Assembly: GCF_004123905.1 (NCBI RefSeq)
Contig: NZ_MZXW01000013.1
Location: 1 to 64,000 of the forward strand
Origin: Bradyrhizobium betae
Lineage (GTDB): Bacteria; Pseudomonadota; Alphaproteobacteria; Rhizobiales; Xanthobacteraceae
Length of the DNA stretch: 64,000 bases
Direction: 5' to 3'
The first letter of the stretch is position 1; every line of letters begins with the position of its first letter. The notes under the pieces are model-generated. The model worked only from the letters and a program-made list of their open reading frames with translations, made no database searches and had not been told where the DNA came from. The translations under genes were made by a program, and so were the position numbers. Shown here in pieces: positions 1-33,307 of this stretch.

Positions 1-280
1 CCTCTGCAGCATCCGGCCCGCGAACCGCCATGCCGAGAGTACCGGGTAGTGTCCCGGGCCTCGAGCGGCCGCGCGGCCCATGTCCACCGACGCTGTGGCC
101 GCGGCACACCGCGGCCGCGCCTGGACTCTCGAATGGGTCCGCGCGCGGCCCAGCGTGCCGGCGGAAGAGCATGCCGGTCTCCCCCGTCATTGCGAGCGCA
201 GCGAAGCAATCCAGAGTCTTTCCGCGGAGGGATTCTGGATTGCTTCGCTGCGCTCGCAATGACGGAGTTTGGAGATCCAG
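1..280. other. Intergenic region with a long palindrome
   Basis: I see no supported gene here. The first 180 bases are GC-rich with no conserved reading frame that I recognise. The right half is occupied by the 31-bp inverted repeat listed separately at 185-264. The region lies downstream of the minus-strand DUF2336 gene that ends at 281, so the palindrome may serve as its transcript end, although it has no T-run. Confidence 0.5.
185..264. repeat. Perfect 31-bp inverted repeat, family A copy 1
   Basis: The left arm at 185-215 and the right arm at 234-264 are exact reverse complements over 31 bases, around an 18-base loop. The arms contain the core GCGAGCGCAGCGAAGCAATC. A degenerate second copy is at 23733-23820. 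Similar intergenic palindromes are common in Bradyrhizobium and many other proteobacteria; I know of no assigned function. Confidence 0.9.
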
Positions 281-1505: not shown

Positions 1506-1598
1506 TGCAACACAAAATAAACCACGACGCTTAACAAAGCGTTCACCATAACTGGCTGGTTTTATTGACGTTTTGTTAAGGGAACAAAGCTGCTGCCG

Positions 1599-1723
1599 CT
1601 CGTGCCCCGGACGCAGCGCAGCACGCAAGTGATGCACTGCTGAATCTCCGAGAGAGGTGCGCGCGGCTTGGGTCCCGGCGCTGCGCAGCAGCGTTTCACG
1701 CTGCAGCGCGTCCGGGACACGAG
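1599..1723. repeat. Family B repeat copy 1
   Basis: It starts with a CTCGTGCCCCGGACGCAGCG-type end and finishes with a GCGCGTCCGGGACACGAG-type end, so its termini are imperfect inverted complements. Internal segments read like GGTCCCGGCGCTGCGCAGCA. Copies with the same ends are at 23567-23701, 25421-25563, 29576-29697 and 30070-30158. All are intergenic. Confidence 0.8.
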
Positions 1724-1731
1724 AGTGAGTG

Positions 1732-23408: not shown

Positions 23409-23566
23409 TGCAGTCCCCAACGCACTTTCCCCGCGCATCCAATGCGCCGCGCGCTTAATGCCGTGTAAAAAGGACGCAGTTGCGCGTTCCATTCGGCGAT
23501 TATGACAGTTTTAAGTCCGGCGTTGGTTAGCGCGCGTTAGAGACTATGACAGCTGCTTAAAATGCT

Positions 23567-23701
23567 CTCGTGTCCCGGACGCGCTGCAACGCGTAAGCAT
23601 TGCTGCGCAGAGCCGGGACCCAGCAGGCCGCGCGCTCGACGTCGCATGGGCCCCGGCTCTGCAGCGCACCGCTGCGCGCTGCGCTGCGTCCGGGGCACGA
23701 G
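23567..23701. repeat. Family B repeat copy 2
   Basis: It begins CTCGTGTCCCGGACGCGCTG and ends with GCGTCCGGGGCACGAG, complementary ends as in copies at 1599-1723 and 25421-25563. It contains GAGCCGGGACCCAG and GGGCCCCGGCTCTGCAGCG, which are themselves related in opposite orientation. Confidence 0.85.
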
Positions 23702-23732
23702 CGCGGTGTTTGGCGCAAGACTGCCTCCACGT

Positions 23733-23820
23733 CGTCATTGGCGAGCGCAGCGAAGCAATCCAGAATCCCTCCGCGGAAACAGTCTGGATTGCTTCGTCGC
23801 AAGGGCTCCTCGCAATGACG
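23733..23820. repeat. Family A inverted repeat copy 2 (degenerate)
   Basis: The left arm at 23733-23764 matches the left arm at 185-215 with one extra G. The right arm at 23783-23820 is diverged by a small insertion (CTTCGTCGCAAGGGCTCC instead of CTTCGCTGCGC). It lies 31 bp from a family B copy. Confidence 0.85.
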
Positions 23821-24990: not shown

Positions 24991-25563
<573 letters not shown>

Positions 25564-25585
25564 AGCTACAGCTAGGCAAGCAGGA

Positions 25586-28623: not shown

Positions 28624-29442
28624 TCAAATACGGTCTGAAACGTCCTGTGATGACGCATCCGCAGCATCACTTCGCATGCGCGGCACGGGATCGAACAGCG
28701 CGAACAGCAGGAGCCCTGCGAAGAAGCCGCCGATATGGGCTTGCCAGGCGACACTCGTGGTCTCGGCATCGACCCCGATCGCGCCGACGCCGAAGATGAT
28801 GTTGACGCCGAACCACACCGCCAGGAAGCCGACCACCCGCCCGTCGCGCAGCGCGCGCGACAGCGGCAGGGCTGGAACCTTTGCGGCGGTATCGGCGTCC
28901 GAGCGGGTGAACGACAGGAAGCTGCCGCGACCGAACGCGAAGCGGATCGCGGCTGCCATCGCACCCGACACCGAGGCCGAGGCGCCGATCATCGGCGCCA
29001 CCGCATGCTCATGGGTGACGAGATGGGCGAGCGCACCGGCCGCCGCCGTCACCGCCATGAACAGGAAGAACCTGACAGCGCCAAAGCGTCGCGCCAGCGC
29101 GCTGCCGAACGGCAGCAGCCACATCACGTTGAAGCCGATATGGGTGAGATTGGCGTGCAGCAGCGAATAGGTGACGAAGGTCCAGACCTTCGCACCGGCC
29201 CCGCCGGGGATCTGCAAGTTCAGCAGCGAGGAATCGTAGCGCCTCGGGATGAAGCCGAAGACGTCGATGGTCCAGTTCTCGAGCTCCGGCGGCAGCAGCA
29301 CCCGCAGATGGATCACCGCCAGCAGCACGATATAGGCGGTCAGCGCCGCCGGCAGCGTCAGGATCGGCTCGCGCGGAGCCTCCTCGGTGACGGCCGGCAG
29401 CTCCGGAGCTTGCGGCGACGAATCTTGTGGCGGGGAATCCAA
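28624..29442 (-). CDS. Rhomboid-family intramembrane serine protease
   Basis: The 272-residue protein has about six hydrophobic helices and the rhomboid hallmarks: LTHIGFNVMWLLPFG with the conserved Asn, APMIGASASVSGAMAA with the catalytic Ser in G-A-S, and WQAHIGGFFAGLLLF with the His. It cuts membrane proteins inside the bilayer. The N-terminal 30 residues are Pro/Glu-rich and cytoplasmic. The C-terminal tail after the last helix is short and polar. Confidence 0.9.
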   Translation of the reverse strand: MDSPPQDSSPQAPELPAVTEEAPREPILTLPAALTAYIVLLAVIHLRVLLPPELENWTIDVFGFIPRRYDSSLLNLQIPGGAGAKVWTFVTYSLLHANLTHIGFNVMWLLPFGSALARRFGAVRFFLFMAVTAAAGALAHLVTHEHAVAPMIGASASVSGAMAAAIRFAFGRGSFLSFTRSDADTAAKVPALPLSRALRDGRVVGFLAVWFGVNIIFGVGAIGVDAETTSVAWQAHIGGFFAGLLLFALFDPVPRMRSDAADASSQDVSDRI

Positions 29443-29757
29443 GGCAGCTTCGCTTTCAGGCGCGATCGGAGCGACAGGCTTAACGACAAGCCTTGGAGAT
29501 AGTCGCCTTTGCCGGCCTTGCGCAAGTGCACAAAAGGAATTCGTGAACTAGGGCTCGTTTGAACCCCGGCGAGACGCTGGGTCCCGGCCCAGCAGTGCAT
29601 CGCTGGGGCACTGCACTGCGTCCGGGACACGGAGATATTGCCGGCCTGGGCTGGTCTCGTGTCCCGGACAAGTGACGCGCCGCAGAGCCGGGACCTAGAT
29701 TGGCGGCAAGCTCTAACCGTGCAATTTTAGGTAGTTCAACCTTCCGGGTTTACACCC
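29443..29757. other. Intergenic region with repeat fragments
   Basis: It contains the family B fragments listed at 29576-29697 and otherwise nothing that I can support. It lies upstream of both the rhomboid gene (minus) and the GIY-YIG pseudogene (plus). Confidence 0.5.
29576..29697. repeat. Family B repeat, two partial copies (copy 4)
   Basis: A partial copy at 29576-29632 ends CTGCGTCCGGGACACGG; a second at 29656-29697 starts CTCGTGTCCCGGACAAGTGA and includes GAGCCGGGACC. They resemble broken or recombined units. They flank the left side of the GIY-YIG pseudogene. Confidence 0.75.
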
Positions 29758-30068
29758 ATGCAAACCGCGTTCTTCGTCTACATCCTCGCGAGCAGACGAA
29801 ACGGCACATTATATATTGATATATTGGCGTCACCAACGACCTCGCGCGCGGGATGGCCGCGCACAAGGCCAAGCTCGTCCCCGGGTTTACGAAGCAGTAC
29901 GGGGTGACTTTGCTGGTCAATTTCGAGACCTACGGCTCCATCCTCGAAGCAAGGGCGCGCGAGAATTCGCTGAAGCGATGGCGGCGTGCCTGGAAGCTCA
30001 AACTGATAGAAGACCTCAATCCAGACTGGCGCAACCTCACCGATGAATTGAATTCGCTGGCGGGCTGA
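29758..30068 (+). pseudogene. GIY-YIG nuclease, frameshifted by an 8-base duplication
   Basis: An ATG at 29758 encodes MQTAFFVYILASRRNGTLYI, the start of a small UPF0213-like GIY-YIG nuclease. The frame should continue IGVTNDLARGMAAHKAKLVP but the 8 bases at 29818-29825 (GATATATT) are extra. They repeat the preceding 29810-29817 (TATATATT) at 7 of 8 positions. Removing them restores the frame into KAKLVPGFTKQYGVTLLVNF through SLKRWRRAWKLKLIEDLNPD to the stop at 30066-30068. As it stands the nuclease motif is broken. Family B repeats lie on both sides. Confidence 0.85.
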
Positions 30069-30069
30069 C

Positions 30070-30158
30070 TGGGTCCCGGCACTTGTTGTGTTTGCGACAT
30101 GGGCCCCGGCTCTGCAGCGCACCGCTGAAGAAGCGCTGCGCTGCGTCCGGGGCACGAG
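30070..30158. repeat. Family B repeat copy 5
   Basis: It starts at the stop codon of the GIY-YIG pseudogene with TGGGTCCCGGCACTTG, contains GGGCCCCGGCTCTGCAGCGC as in copy 2, and ends with GCGTCCGGGGCACGAG. The left terminal part found in copies 1-3 is missing. Confidence 0.8.
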
Positions 30159-30164
30159 AGTGTG

Positions 30165-30345
30165 CCCCGCAAAAGGAAAAGGCAGGGCCCTGGGAAAGCC
30201 CTGCCTGTCCTTGTCGGCCTTCCGGCACCAGAGGAATGAAGGTGTATCCCCACCCCTCCCCGGCCCGTGGCCAAACTGTTTGACGCCTGTGTACAGGCCT
30301 CGCCGAGAACCTGGAGAAAGCGGCGAGGCTTGCGACCGCGATCAC
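30165..30345 (-). ncRNA. Candidate small RNA with terminator
   Basis: Read on the minus strand, the region begins near 30345, forms a 9-bp hairpin (GCCTCGCCG with CGGCGAGGC), then a GCCTGT/ACAGGC stem, a G-rich stretch, and ends with a 9-bp stem (AGGCAGGGC, GCCCTGCCT; 30180-30206) followed by TTTTCCTTTT, which fits a rho-independent terminator. No reading frame is convincing. I could not match it to 6S, SRP or tmRNA. It is a candidate only. Confidence 0.4.
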
Positions 30346-30544: not shown

Positions 30545-31099
30545 ATGAAACATCCGTCGAGCCGCGAGTTCTTCGCATATTGGGACAAGAAGCGCGGCAC
30601 TGCGCGGGCCCCTGACCGGGCAGATATCGATCCGGCCGCGGTCCGCGGCCTGCTCGGCGACATTTTCGTCCTCTCCTGCGAGCAAAATCTCGGCTTCCCG
30701 TTCCGCGTCGCCGGCACGCGCGTCTGCGCGCTTGCCGGAACGGATCTCAAGGACTCGAGCTTCACTGCGCTGTTCAACGAGGCGAGCCGCCGCGAGATCG
30801 AGGAGATCACGACCATCGTGGCCGACGAGAGGCTCGGCGCCATCGCCGGCGTCACGGCCGCGCGCGAGGACGGCAGCAAGGCGCATCTCGAGCTGCTGCT
30901 GCTGCCCTTCAACGCCCGACCGCATACGCCTGTCAGCGTGACAGGCGTGCTCGCGCCGTTCGACGACGAATGCGGCGCGCTTGGTCGCTTCACCCTCACC
31001 TCCTGGCGCTATCTGCATCAGCCGGAGAAACTATTGCCGCGCGCGATCCGCAAATTGCAGATCGCACGCGGGCTCATGGTGTATGAGGGGTTGAGGTAG
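30545..31099 (+). CDS. PAS_5-domain protein
   Basis: The 184-residue protein is of the alphaproteobacterial PAS_5 type: HPSSREFFAYWDKKRGTARA, IDPAAVRGLLGDIFVLSCEQ, FPFRVAGTRVCALAGTDLKD, ending RKLQIARGLMVYEGLR. These stand-alone PAS-like proteins are multi-copy in Rhizobiales and their ligand is not known. A 19-codon relic of a second copy is at 33248-33307. There is no membrane segment or effector domain. The ribosome site is weak. Confidence 0.85.
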   Translation: MKHPSSREFFAYWDKKRGTARAPDRADIDPAAVRGLLGDIFVLSCEQNLGFPFRVAGTRVCALAGTDLKDSSFTALFNEASRREIEEITTIVADERLGAIAGVTAAREDGSKAHLELLLLPFNARPHTPVSVTGVLAPFDDECGALGRFTLTSWRYLHQPEKLLPRAIRKLQIARGLMVYEGLR

Positions 31100-33247: not shown

Positions 33248-33307
33248 ACCGCGATCGGCAAATTGCCGGTCACACGCGGGCCGATGGTGTATGAGGGGCT
33301 GCGATAG
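33248..33307 (+). pseudogene. C-terminal relic of a PAS_5 gene
   Basis: The 19 codons before the stop at 33305-33307 read TAIGKLPVTRGPMVYEGLR. The intact PAS_5 protein at 30545 ends RAIRKLQIARGLMVYEGLR, 14 of 19 identical by eye, and both end at the same residue. The upstream frame is closed by a TGA at 33218-33220. Only the tail of a former paralogue remains. Confidence 0.75.

Follow-up and report, generated by a model that had tools for sequence, protein, structure and literature searches.

Several described systems resemble the locus studied here. RAYTs come as one enzyme lineage per repeat family. Free-standing GIY-YIG homing endonuclease genes combine a GIY-YIG catalytic domain, a solitary gene and presence/absence polymorphism, and GIY-YIG enzymes in general hydrolyse DNA with no covalent intermediate. 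In Neisseria, the Ssn family, said to have appeared in Nat Commun in 2025, reportedly consists of site-specific GIY-YIG nucleases that cut single-stranded copies of a matching repeat (NTS); it is said to have many homologues, each with its own sequence, and the emphasis was reportedly on DNA uptake. A further system is known from its repeats. CGTC-tagged REPs (Di Nocera 2013), which consist of a CGTC tag and a palindromic stem, are widespread and predominant in alphaproteobacteria, with Bradyrhizobium assigned CGTC-1 and CGTC-3, and according to that survey they "apparently lack a dedicated transposase" (PMC3733652).

Here, we analysed a locus of Bradyrhizobium betae at which a broken small GIY-YIG gene lies between REP palindromes. 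The window, that is, the whole stretch of DNA analysed, comprises bases 1-64000 (64 kb) of contig 55 of an 8.62-Mb genome.

A broken GIY-YIG gene between REP-B palindromes

A GIY-YIG frame opens on the forward strand at the ATG at 29758 (MQTAFFVYILASRRNGTLYI...) and is interrupted within the YIG motif. ORF translation gives a 5' frame of 49 aa (29758..29907), while the remainder of the nuclease (29820..30068, forward strand) is shifted to another frame and terminates at the TGA at 30066-30068; in a profile search of the genome, the PF01541 match of this gene carries an internal stop. Sequence comparison placed the frameshift in a perfect 8-bp tandem duplication (29811..29826, forward strand), whose unit ATATATTG is exactly repeated at 29811-29818 and 29819-29826. 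The earlier note had spoken of an 8-base near-tandem duplication; the break of the frame is real, but the duplication is perfect and had been placed one base too low.

Among intact paralogues, L002 comes closest to the window copy, with 76% DNA identity, and the remainder of the window nuclease is 81% identical to the L002 protein over 81 aa. This comparison revealed a second probable lesion: a near-invariant arginine (R27 in L002 numbering), shared by 98% of 117 relatives, is replaced by Gly in the window copy. The alignment columns that we take as catalytic, assigned from the GIY-YIG motif, are conserved at a level of at least 0.95 in the 117 relatives. A stand-alone GIY-YIG domain with intact catalytic residues is present in the intact relatives and not in the window copy. 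Frameshift and loss of R27 together predict that the window copy is dead.

The duplication itself looks like ordinary slippage. Three perfect tandem duplications of 8-12 bp (unit of at least three letters) occur in the 64-kb window, the one in the nuclease gene included, and the other two measure 8-9 bp. Slippage or repair at a cut site had both been put forward for its origin. An origin at a cut site is not supported: the duplication lies in an AT-rich coding stretch outside any repeat, and there are two similar duplications elsewhere in the window.

REP-B material borders the gene on both sides, as had been stated earlier. On the left, a full palindromic unit (29578..29634, forward strand; DNA hairpin of -18.7 kcal/mol, z -3.6) is followed by a truncated unit in the opposite orientation (29655..29697, reverse strand), whose short hairpin folds no better than shuffles (z -0.1). 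On the right, a fragment (30070..30086, forward strand) precedes a full unit (30099..30158, forward strand; -24.7 kcal/mol, z -5.0). Both full units out-folded 200 of 200 shuffles. The right-hand repeat had been said to start at the nuclease stop codon; it does adjoin the codon, but begins two bases beyond its end. Family B has the stem GTCCCGG/CCGGGAC and the tail CCA, and its head is CTCGT, not CGTC. A 15-mer REP-B pattern has 119 copies in the own genome and the reversed pattern none. Repeat comparison also located REP-B units without a nuclease gene at 1597..1725, 23565..23704 and 25412..25566 of the window. A REP-A dimer (CGTCATTGCGAGCG..GCAATCC) at 184..265 forms a near-perfect 82-base hairpin; other genomes yielded the GIY-YIG partner of this family, the own one did not. 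REP-A is also present at 23741-23796.

The whole module is present or absent among relatives

Comparison with the empty alleles of relatives (L130, L131; site status in 54 genomes) identified the whole module as a 630-bp insertion (29540..30169), bounded by a left (29531..29539) and a right (30170..30178) copy of the target-site duplication CAAAAGGAA. Open reading frames and synteny define the neighbours: on the left a gene that we presume to be rhomboid-like (28624..29442, reverse strand), on the right one that we take to be PAS-like (30545..31099, forward strand).

Among the best 30 loci for this site, five carry the gene or what remains of it, one (L117) has REP-B alone, and 24 lack the gene. 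The five carriers are the own broken copy, three full-length genes (L120, L125, L126) and one with an internal deletion (L143). Relative to the empty alleles, the inserts measure 630 bp in the window, 702 bp in L120, 723 bp in L125, 576 bp in L126 and 392-393 bp in L143, and the direct target copies that bound them, with mismatches allowed, 9 bp in the window and in L120, 15 bp in L125, 19 bp in L126 and 16-17 bp in L143. The displayed empty alleles contain no REP, and the filled alleles import REPs between the target duplications. These comparisons show that the whole repeat-gene-repeat unit was gained or lost at this site with a short target duplication. The direct duplications suggest a staggered or gap-filled insertion, one site making no rule.

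In all 54 genomes scored for this site, the gene or a remnant was found in seven, including the distant G053 and G004; nine others had at least two REP-B signatures, 16 a single short match, which may be chance, and 22 none, so that 38 of the 54 genomes show no clear trace of the module. The distribution (7 of 54 positive), which may reflect one insertion or several, needs at least seven changes on a single-gene tree.

The surroundings of the site have features of their own. Between the divergent rhomboid-like and PAS-like genes, 30171-30215 comprises an A/G-rich stretch and then a hairpin (AAAAGGAAAAGGCAGGGCCC..GCCCTGCC); this element is conserved in 15 aligned alleles, the module sits at its edge, and it is possibly a terminator or a small RNA. 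A 58-nt direct repeat, 84% identical between copies, is found at the 3' end of the PAS-like gene (31042-31099) and at 33250-33307, where the second copy probably closes a paralogue of that gene.

At two further sites, the gene or a remnant was found in 9 of 30 loci (M20) and 11 of 30 loci (rmuC). Some gene-less alleles at both sites hold a single repeat unit or a dimer in place of REP-gene-REP. In the filled alleles, the gene lies between complete direct-orientation repeat copies and not within a split repeat; recombination between these copies thus explains the single-repeat alleles as losses, and loss by this route fits both sites. A clean target duplication was found at none of the M20, rmuC and ABC sites, nor in a wider comparison of 55 regions, each up to 20 kb long. 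Near L356 17472, L368 17376 and L369 16420, relatives differ in whether they carry REP dimers of other families, with no consistent target duplication. Because some REP dimers vary in this way without a visible duplication, target duplication cannot be called a rule. The rmuC-MFS interval (L176-L205) is a hot spot whose content differs between genomes: some have GIY-YIG modules there, in which two different repeat families occur, others have solo REP dimers belonging to two or more families, and others again show no evident repeat.

Palindromic repeats around small GIY-YIG genes

Five PF01541 matches were found in the own genome: a 693-aa frame (L004), presumably UvrC by its size, the broken window gene and three small intact genes. 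All three intact genes are bracketed by palindromic repeats, each of a different family: TGTCGTCGCCCGGCTTGACCGGGCGACCCAG (family C) at L001, REP-B at L002 and CGTCATCCTGAGGTGCGAG..CTCGAAGGATG (family D) at L003. A tyrosine (HUH) transposase domain was not found in these three proteins, for which PF01541 alone was reported at E 0.001. The longest open frame of L001 (1432-1782) starts within the flanking repeat, at a GTG of the REP, which could thus contribute the start region of the gene. PF01541 matches occurred in 60 of 60 genomes of the genus that were searched, with 2 to 9 in each.

The closest named relatives of the own-genome nucleases, among the best 80 of 529 relatives, are from Bradyrhizobium. 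The flanks of the same best 80 of 529 were scanned, four loci being dropped for flanks shorter than 150 bp, which left 76 loci at 44 sites. Each locus was scored for local similarity, in inverted orientation, of its two 250-bp flanks, with a threshold of 20. This was reached at 56 of 76 loci and 30 of 44 sites, compared with 0 of 2672 other places on the same contigs; it was also reached by 2 of 847 other predicted genes, and by 0 of 242 among those shorter than 200 aa. The earlier note had expected repeats near such genes far more often than near random ones, which these counts bear out; that the repeats would also be family-specific (see below) had not been foreseen. Loci that by title lie outside Alphaproteobacteria and score at least 20 include Lutibacter L087, Arenibacter L103, the Zixiibacteriota MAG L110 and the gammaproteobacterial MAG L115; L052, titled Frankia, does so as well, with repeats of Bradyrhizobium type. 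The threshold was missed by 20 of the 76 loci and 14 of the 44 sites; L076, L084, L091, L092, L107 and L114 scored below 20.

A YGTC-tagged hairpin was found on both sides at 72 of 117 loci (control places, 49 of 1465) and on either side at 87 of 117 (control places, 359 of 1465), and the commonest tail of these hairpins across the 117 loci is CCA. A separate small GIY-YIG subfamily (L006-L021, L025, L029), which has the best Pfam scores in the genus, gave flank scores of at most 10.5 in 18 of 18 loci; it was picked out after the scores had been seen and, being one orthologous site in 18 genomes, counts as one control observation. Where compared, 15 of its 18 proteins share at least 75% mutual identity and at most 46% identity with the REP-flanked proteins compared.

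Each nuclease lineage keeps its own repeat family in the loci compared

The relation between protein and repeat was examined at 117 loci, which remained from 160 with a match after 33 had been removed because they contained stops or because match or flanks were short, and 10 more as duplicates. Pairs of non-syntenic loci whose proteins were at least 0.85 identical shared a flank repeat in 33 of 33 cases (6491 pairs overall, which are not mutually independent and are drawn from a limited set of sites). Sharing fell to 82% of 109 pairs at an identity of 0.75-0.85, to 37% at 0.65-0.75, to 4% at 0.55-0.65 and to at most 1% under 0.55. The correlation between identity and sharing was 0.267, which 0 of 499 permutations reached (highest permuted value, 0.104). 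Within genomes, 17 of 18 paralogue pairs had no repeat in common.

Individual lineages gave the same picture. All 15 A-type genes, defined by at least 70% identity to the A nuclease (13 full-length, 2 partial; 7 distinct sites), have REP-A on both flanks, and the one 56%-identical relative examined has REP-A on one side only. All 11 full-length B-type genes are flanked by REP-B left and right in a near-fixed layout, the left repeat 68-73 nt before the match and the right one 7-19 nt after it, as seen at two sites (M20 with 8 genes, the window site with 3). At the level of these alignments, nuclease lineage and repeat family are thereby shown to be specifically paired.

Repeat copy number and gene presence

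Copies were counted with one exact pattern per family, which misses diverged repeat copies. Genomes with an intact B gene contain 24-127 REP-B copies (median 78; 11 genomes) and those without one 0-67 (median 8; 49 genomes; p 2.4e-6, kinship ignored); genomes with a broken B remnant were scored in the latter group (G018, 57 copies; G053, 19; G004, 1). Within a clade of 28 genomes, chosen after the tree had been seen, the values were 78 versus 30 (p 0.0016, kinship ignored). The REP-D median was 23.5 in 12 genomes with gene or remnant, of which two have a stop within the gene, versus 1.5 in 48 others (p 4.4e-6, kinship ignored). For REP-A, the difference was small, with a median of 89 with the gene (15 genomes) versus 65 without it (45; p 0.04, kinship ignored).

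Tree-corrected tests on independent pairs were underpowered. At a threshold of at least 7 REP-D copies, 4.9 of 8 pairs went with the gene and none against it (median p 0.06), with weaker values of 4.1 and 3.6 at thresholds of 10 and 15; REP-B offered four usable pairs and no significance. By these counts, copy number is shown to track the gene for lineages B and D, and hardly for REP-A. The earlier expectation that gene-less genomes would have few repeats is accordingly upheld for B and D and finds weak support for A.

Repeats plainly persist without the nuclease gene. The own genome (G000) contains 185 copies of the REP-A core pattern, and an A-type nuclease, present in 15 of the 60 genomes searched, was not found in it; REP-A is likewise abundant without the A nuclease in G057 (282 copies). 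In G041, 43 REP-D copies were counted, and a search did not find the D gene.

Discussion

We consider it probable that the window feature is a decayed nuclease/REP module, similar to RAYT/REP systems but built around a hydrolytic nuclease. Such a module would consist of one solitary GIY-YIG endonuclease, about 98 aa long, with the palindromic repeats of its own lineage around it. The nuclease would recognise its own repeat and cut it, the most likely substrate being a hairpin of single-stranded DNA, and repair by the host would afterwards move or copy repeat units and whole modules. Movement of the repeats by the nuclease is our inference from these comparisons. Since GIY-YIG hydrolysis proceeds without a covalent intermediate, joining or integration would need an extra host step, unlike in RAYTs. 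Gene-less repeats would then be non-autonomous derivatives, as REPs are for RAYT transposases, and the intact paralogue L002 could act on the REP-B copies of the own genome.

Because each nuclease lineage appears to keep its own repeat family, these enzymes may spread a very common and unexplained bacterial repeat. We put forward, tentatively and with somewhat less confidence than the reading of the locus itself, that the dedicated mobilisers long missing for the CGTC REP superfamily are small GIY-YIG nucleases. With one repeat family per lineage, they would form a second, chemically distinct REP mobility system in several phyla, parallel to RAYT/REP and operating by hydrolytic hairpin cutting and host repair.

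The best-surviving alternative, which we nevertheless regard as unlikely, is a genome-dynamics nuclease of the Ssn type that cuts single-stranded repeat copies, for example in DNA uptake. The repeats would then be recombination-modulating recognition sites and not mobile, and their position beside the gene would serve regulation or follow from joint travel of gene and site. The association of nuclease and repeat and the pairing data fit this explanation equally well, and what is reported of the Ssn family in Neisseria speaks for it. Alone, however, it explains neither module insertion with target duplication nor the copy-number link; it is also compatible with mobility, so that the two explanations are not exclusive.

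A homing endonuclease gene that invades REPs spread by something else, with the REPs as its landing sites, appears more improbable still. The single repeat unit or dimer held by some gene-less M20 and rmuC alleles is what such landing sites could look like. At the window site, however, the insertion does not interrupt a site that is intact in the empty alleles: the target is duplicated, the displayed empty alleles are REP-free, and the filled ones bring their REPs along between the target duplications. At the M20 and rmuC sites, which are ambiguous in this respect, the genes lie between complete direct copies with no split repeat. For B and D, moreover, copy number goes with the gene. That small orphan genes merely adjoin REPs by chance is hardly credible, even though REPs are common and mostly intergenic (PMC3733652): the controls speak strongly against it (0 of 2672 places; 2 of 847 genes, none of the 242 under 200 aa), the pairing is lineage-specific, and repeats are absent from another GIY-YIG subfamily, which sits at a single conserved site.

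Returning to the mobile nuclease/REP module as the preferred reading, among the literature matches listed, apparently no paper ties GIY-YIG nucleases to REPs or RAYTs. In view of what is reported of the Ssn family, that such nucleases pair with repeats has probably been published before, whereas the link to the REP class, the matching of nucleases and repeats family by family in Bradyrhizobium, the empty sites for whole modules and the relation of copy number to the gene are possibly new. A family-by-family enzyme partner makes the missing-transposase question testable with a few cloned nucleases and repeats. If the proposal is true, bacterial genomes would have a second route to gain REPs, by an enzyme incapable of ordinary transposition chemistry, and the Ssn nucleases would be placed within repeat biology.

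Comparison with known systems places these modules as follows. The closest solved relatives by sequence are the UPF0213 proteins (PDB 1zg2, 1ywl), which are annotated as hypothetical and for which we know of no link to repeats. With homing endonuclease genes, the modules have in common the GIY-YIG domain, the solitary gene and the presence/absence polymorphism, but they carry their own repeats and interrupt no coding target. Like the Ssn nucleases, as far as these are reportedly described, they combine a stand-alone GIY-YIG nuclease with a many-copy matching repeat that is also found near the gene; whole-module insertion, empty sites and the copy-number link are features seen by sequence comparison in the Bradyrhizobium modules. 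Families A, C and D resemble CGTC REPs in their YGTC tag, palindromic stem and commonest tail CCA, and the loci as a set, by the hairpin counts given above, match the CGTC REP pattern of an unpaired CGTC or near-CGTC tag, a stem of 8-9 bp and a CCA tail, while family B retains the stem and the CCA tail without a clean CGTC tag. GIY-YIG genes are regular neighbours of the repeats studied here, whereas the 2013 survey reports no dedicated transposase (PMC3733652). Finally, the modules resemble the REP/RAYT systems of GTAG REPs in that a solitary enzyme gene is bracketed by its own repeat family, gene-less repeats are abundant and each enzyme lineage goes with one repeat family, but differ from them in their tag sequences and in having a GIY-YIG hydrolase in the place of a tyrosine (HUH) transposase.
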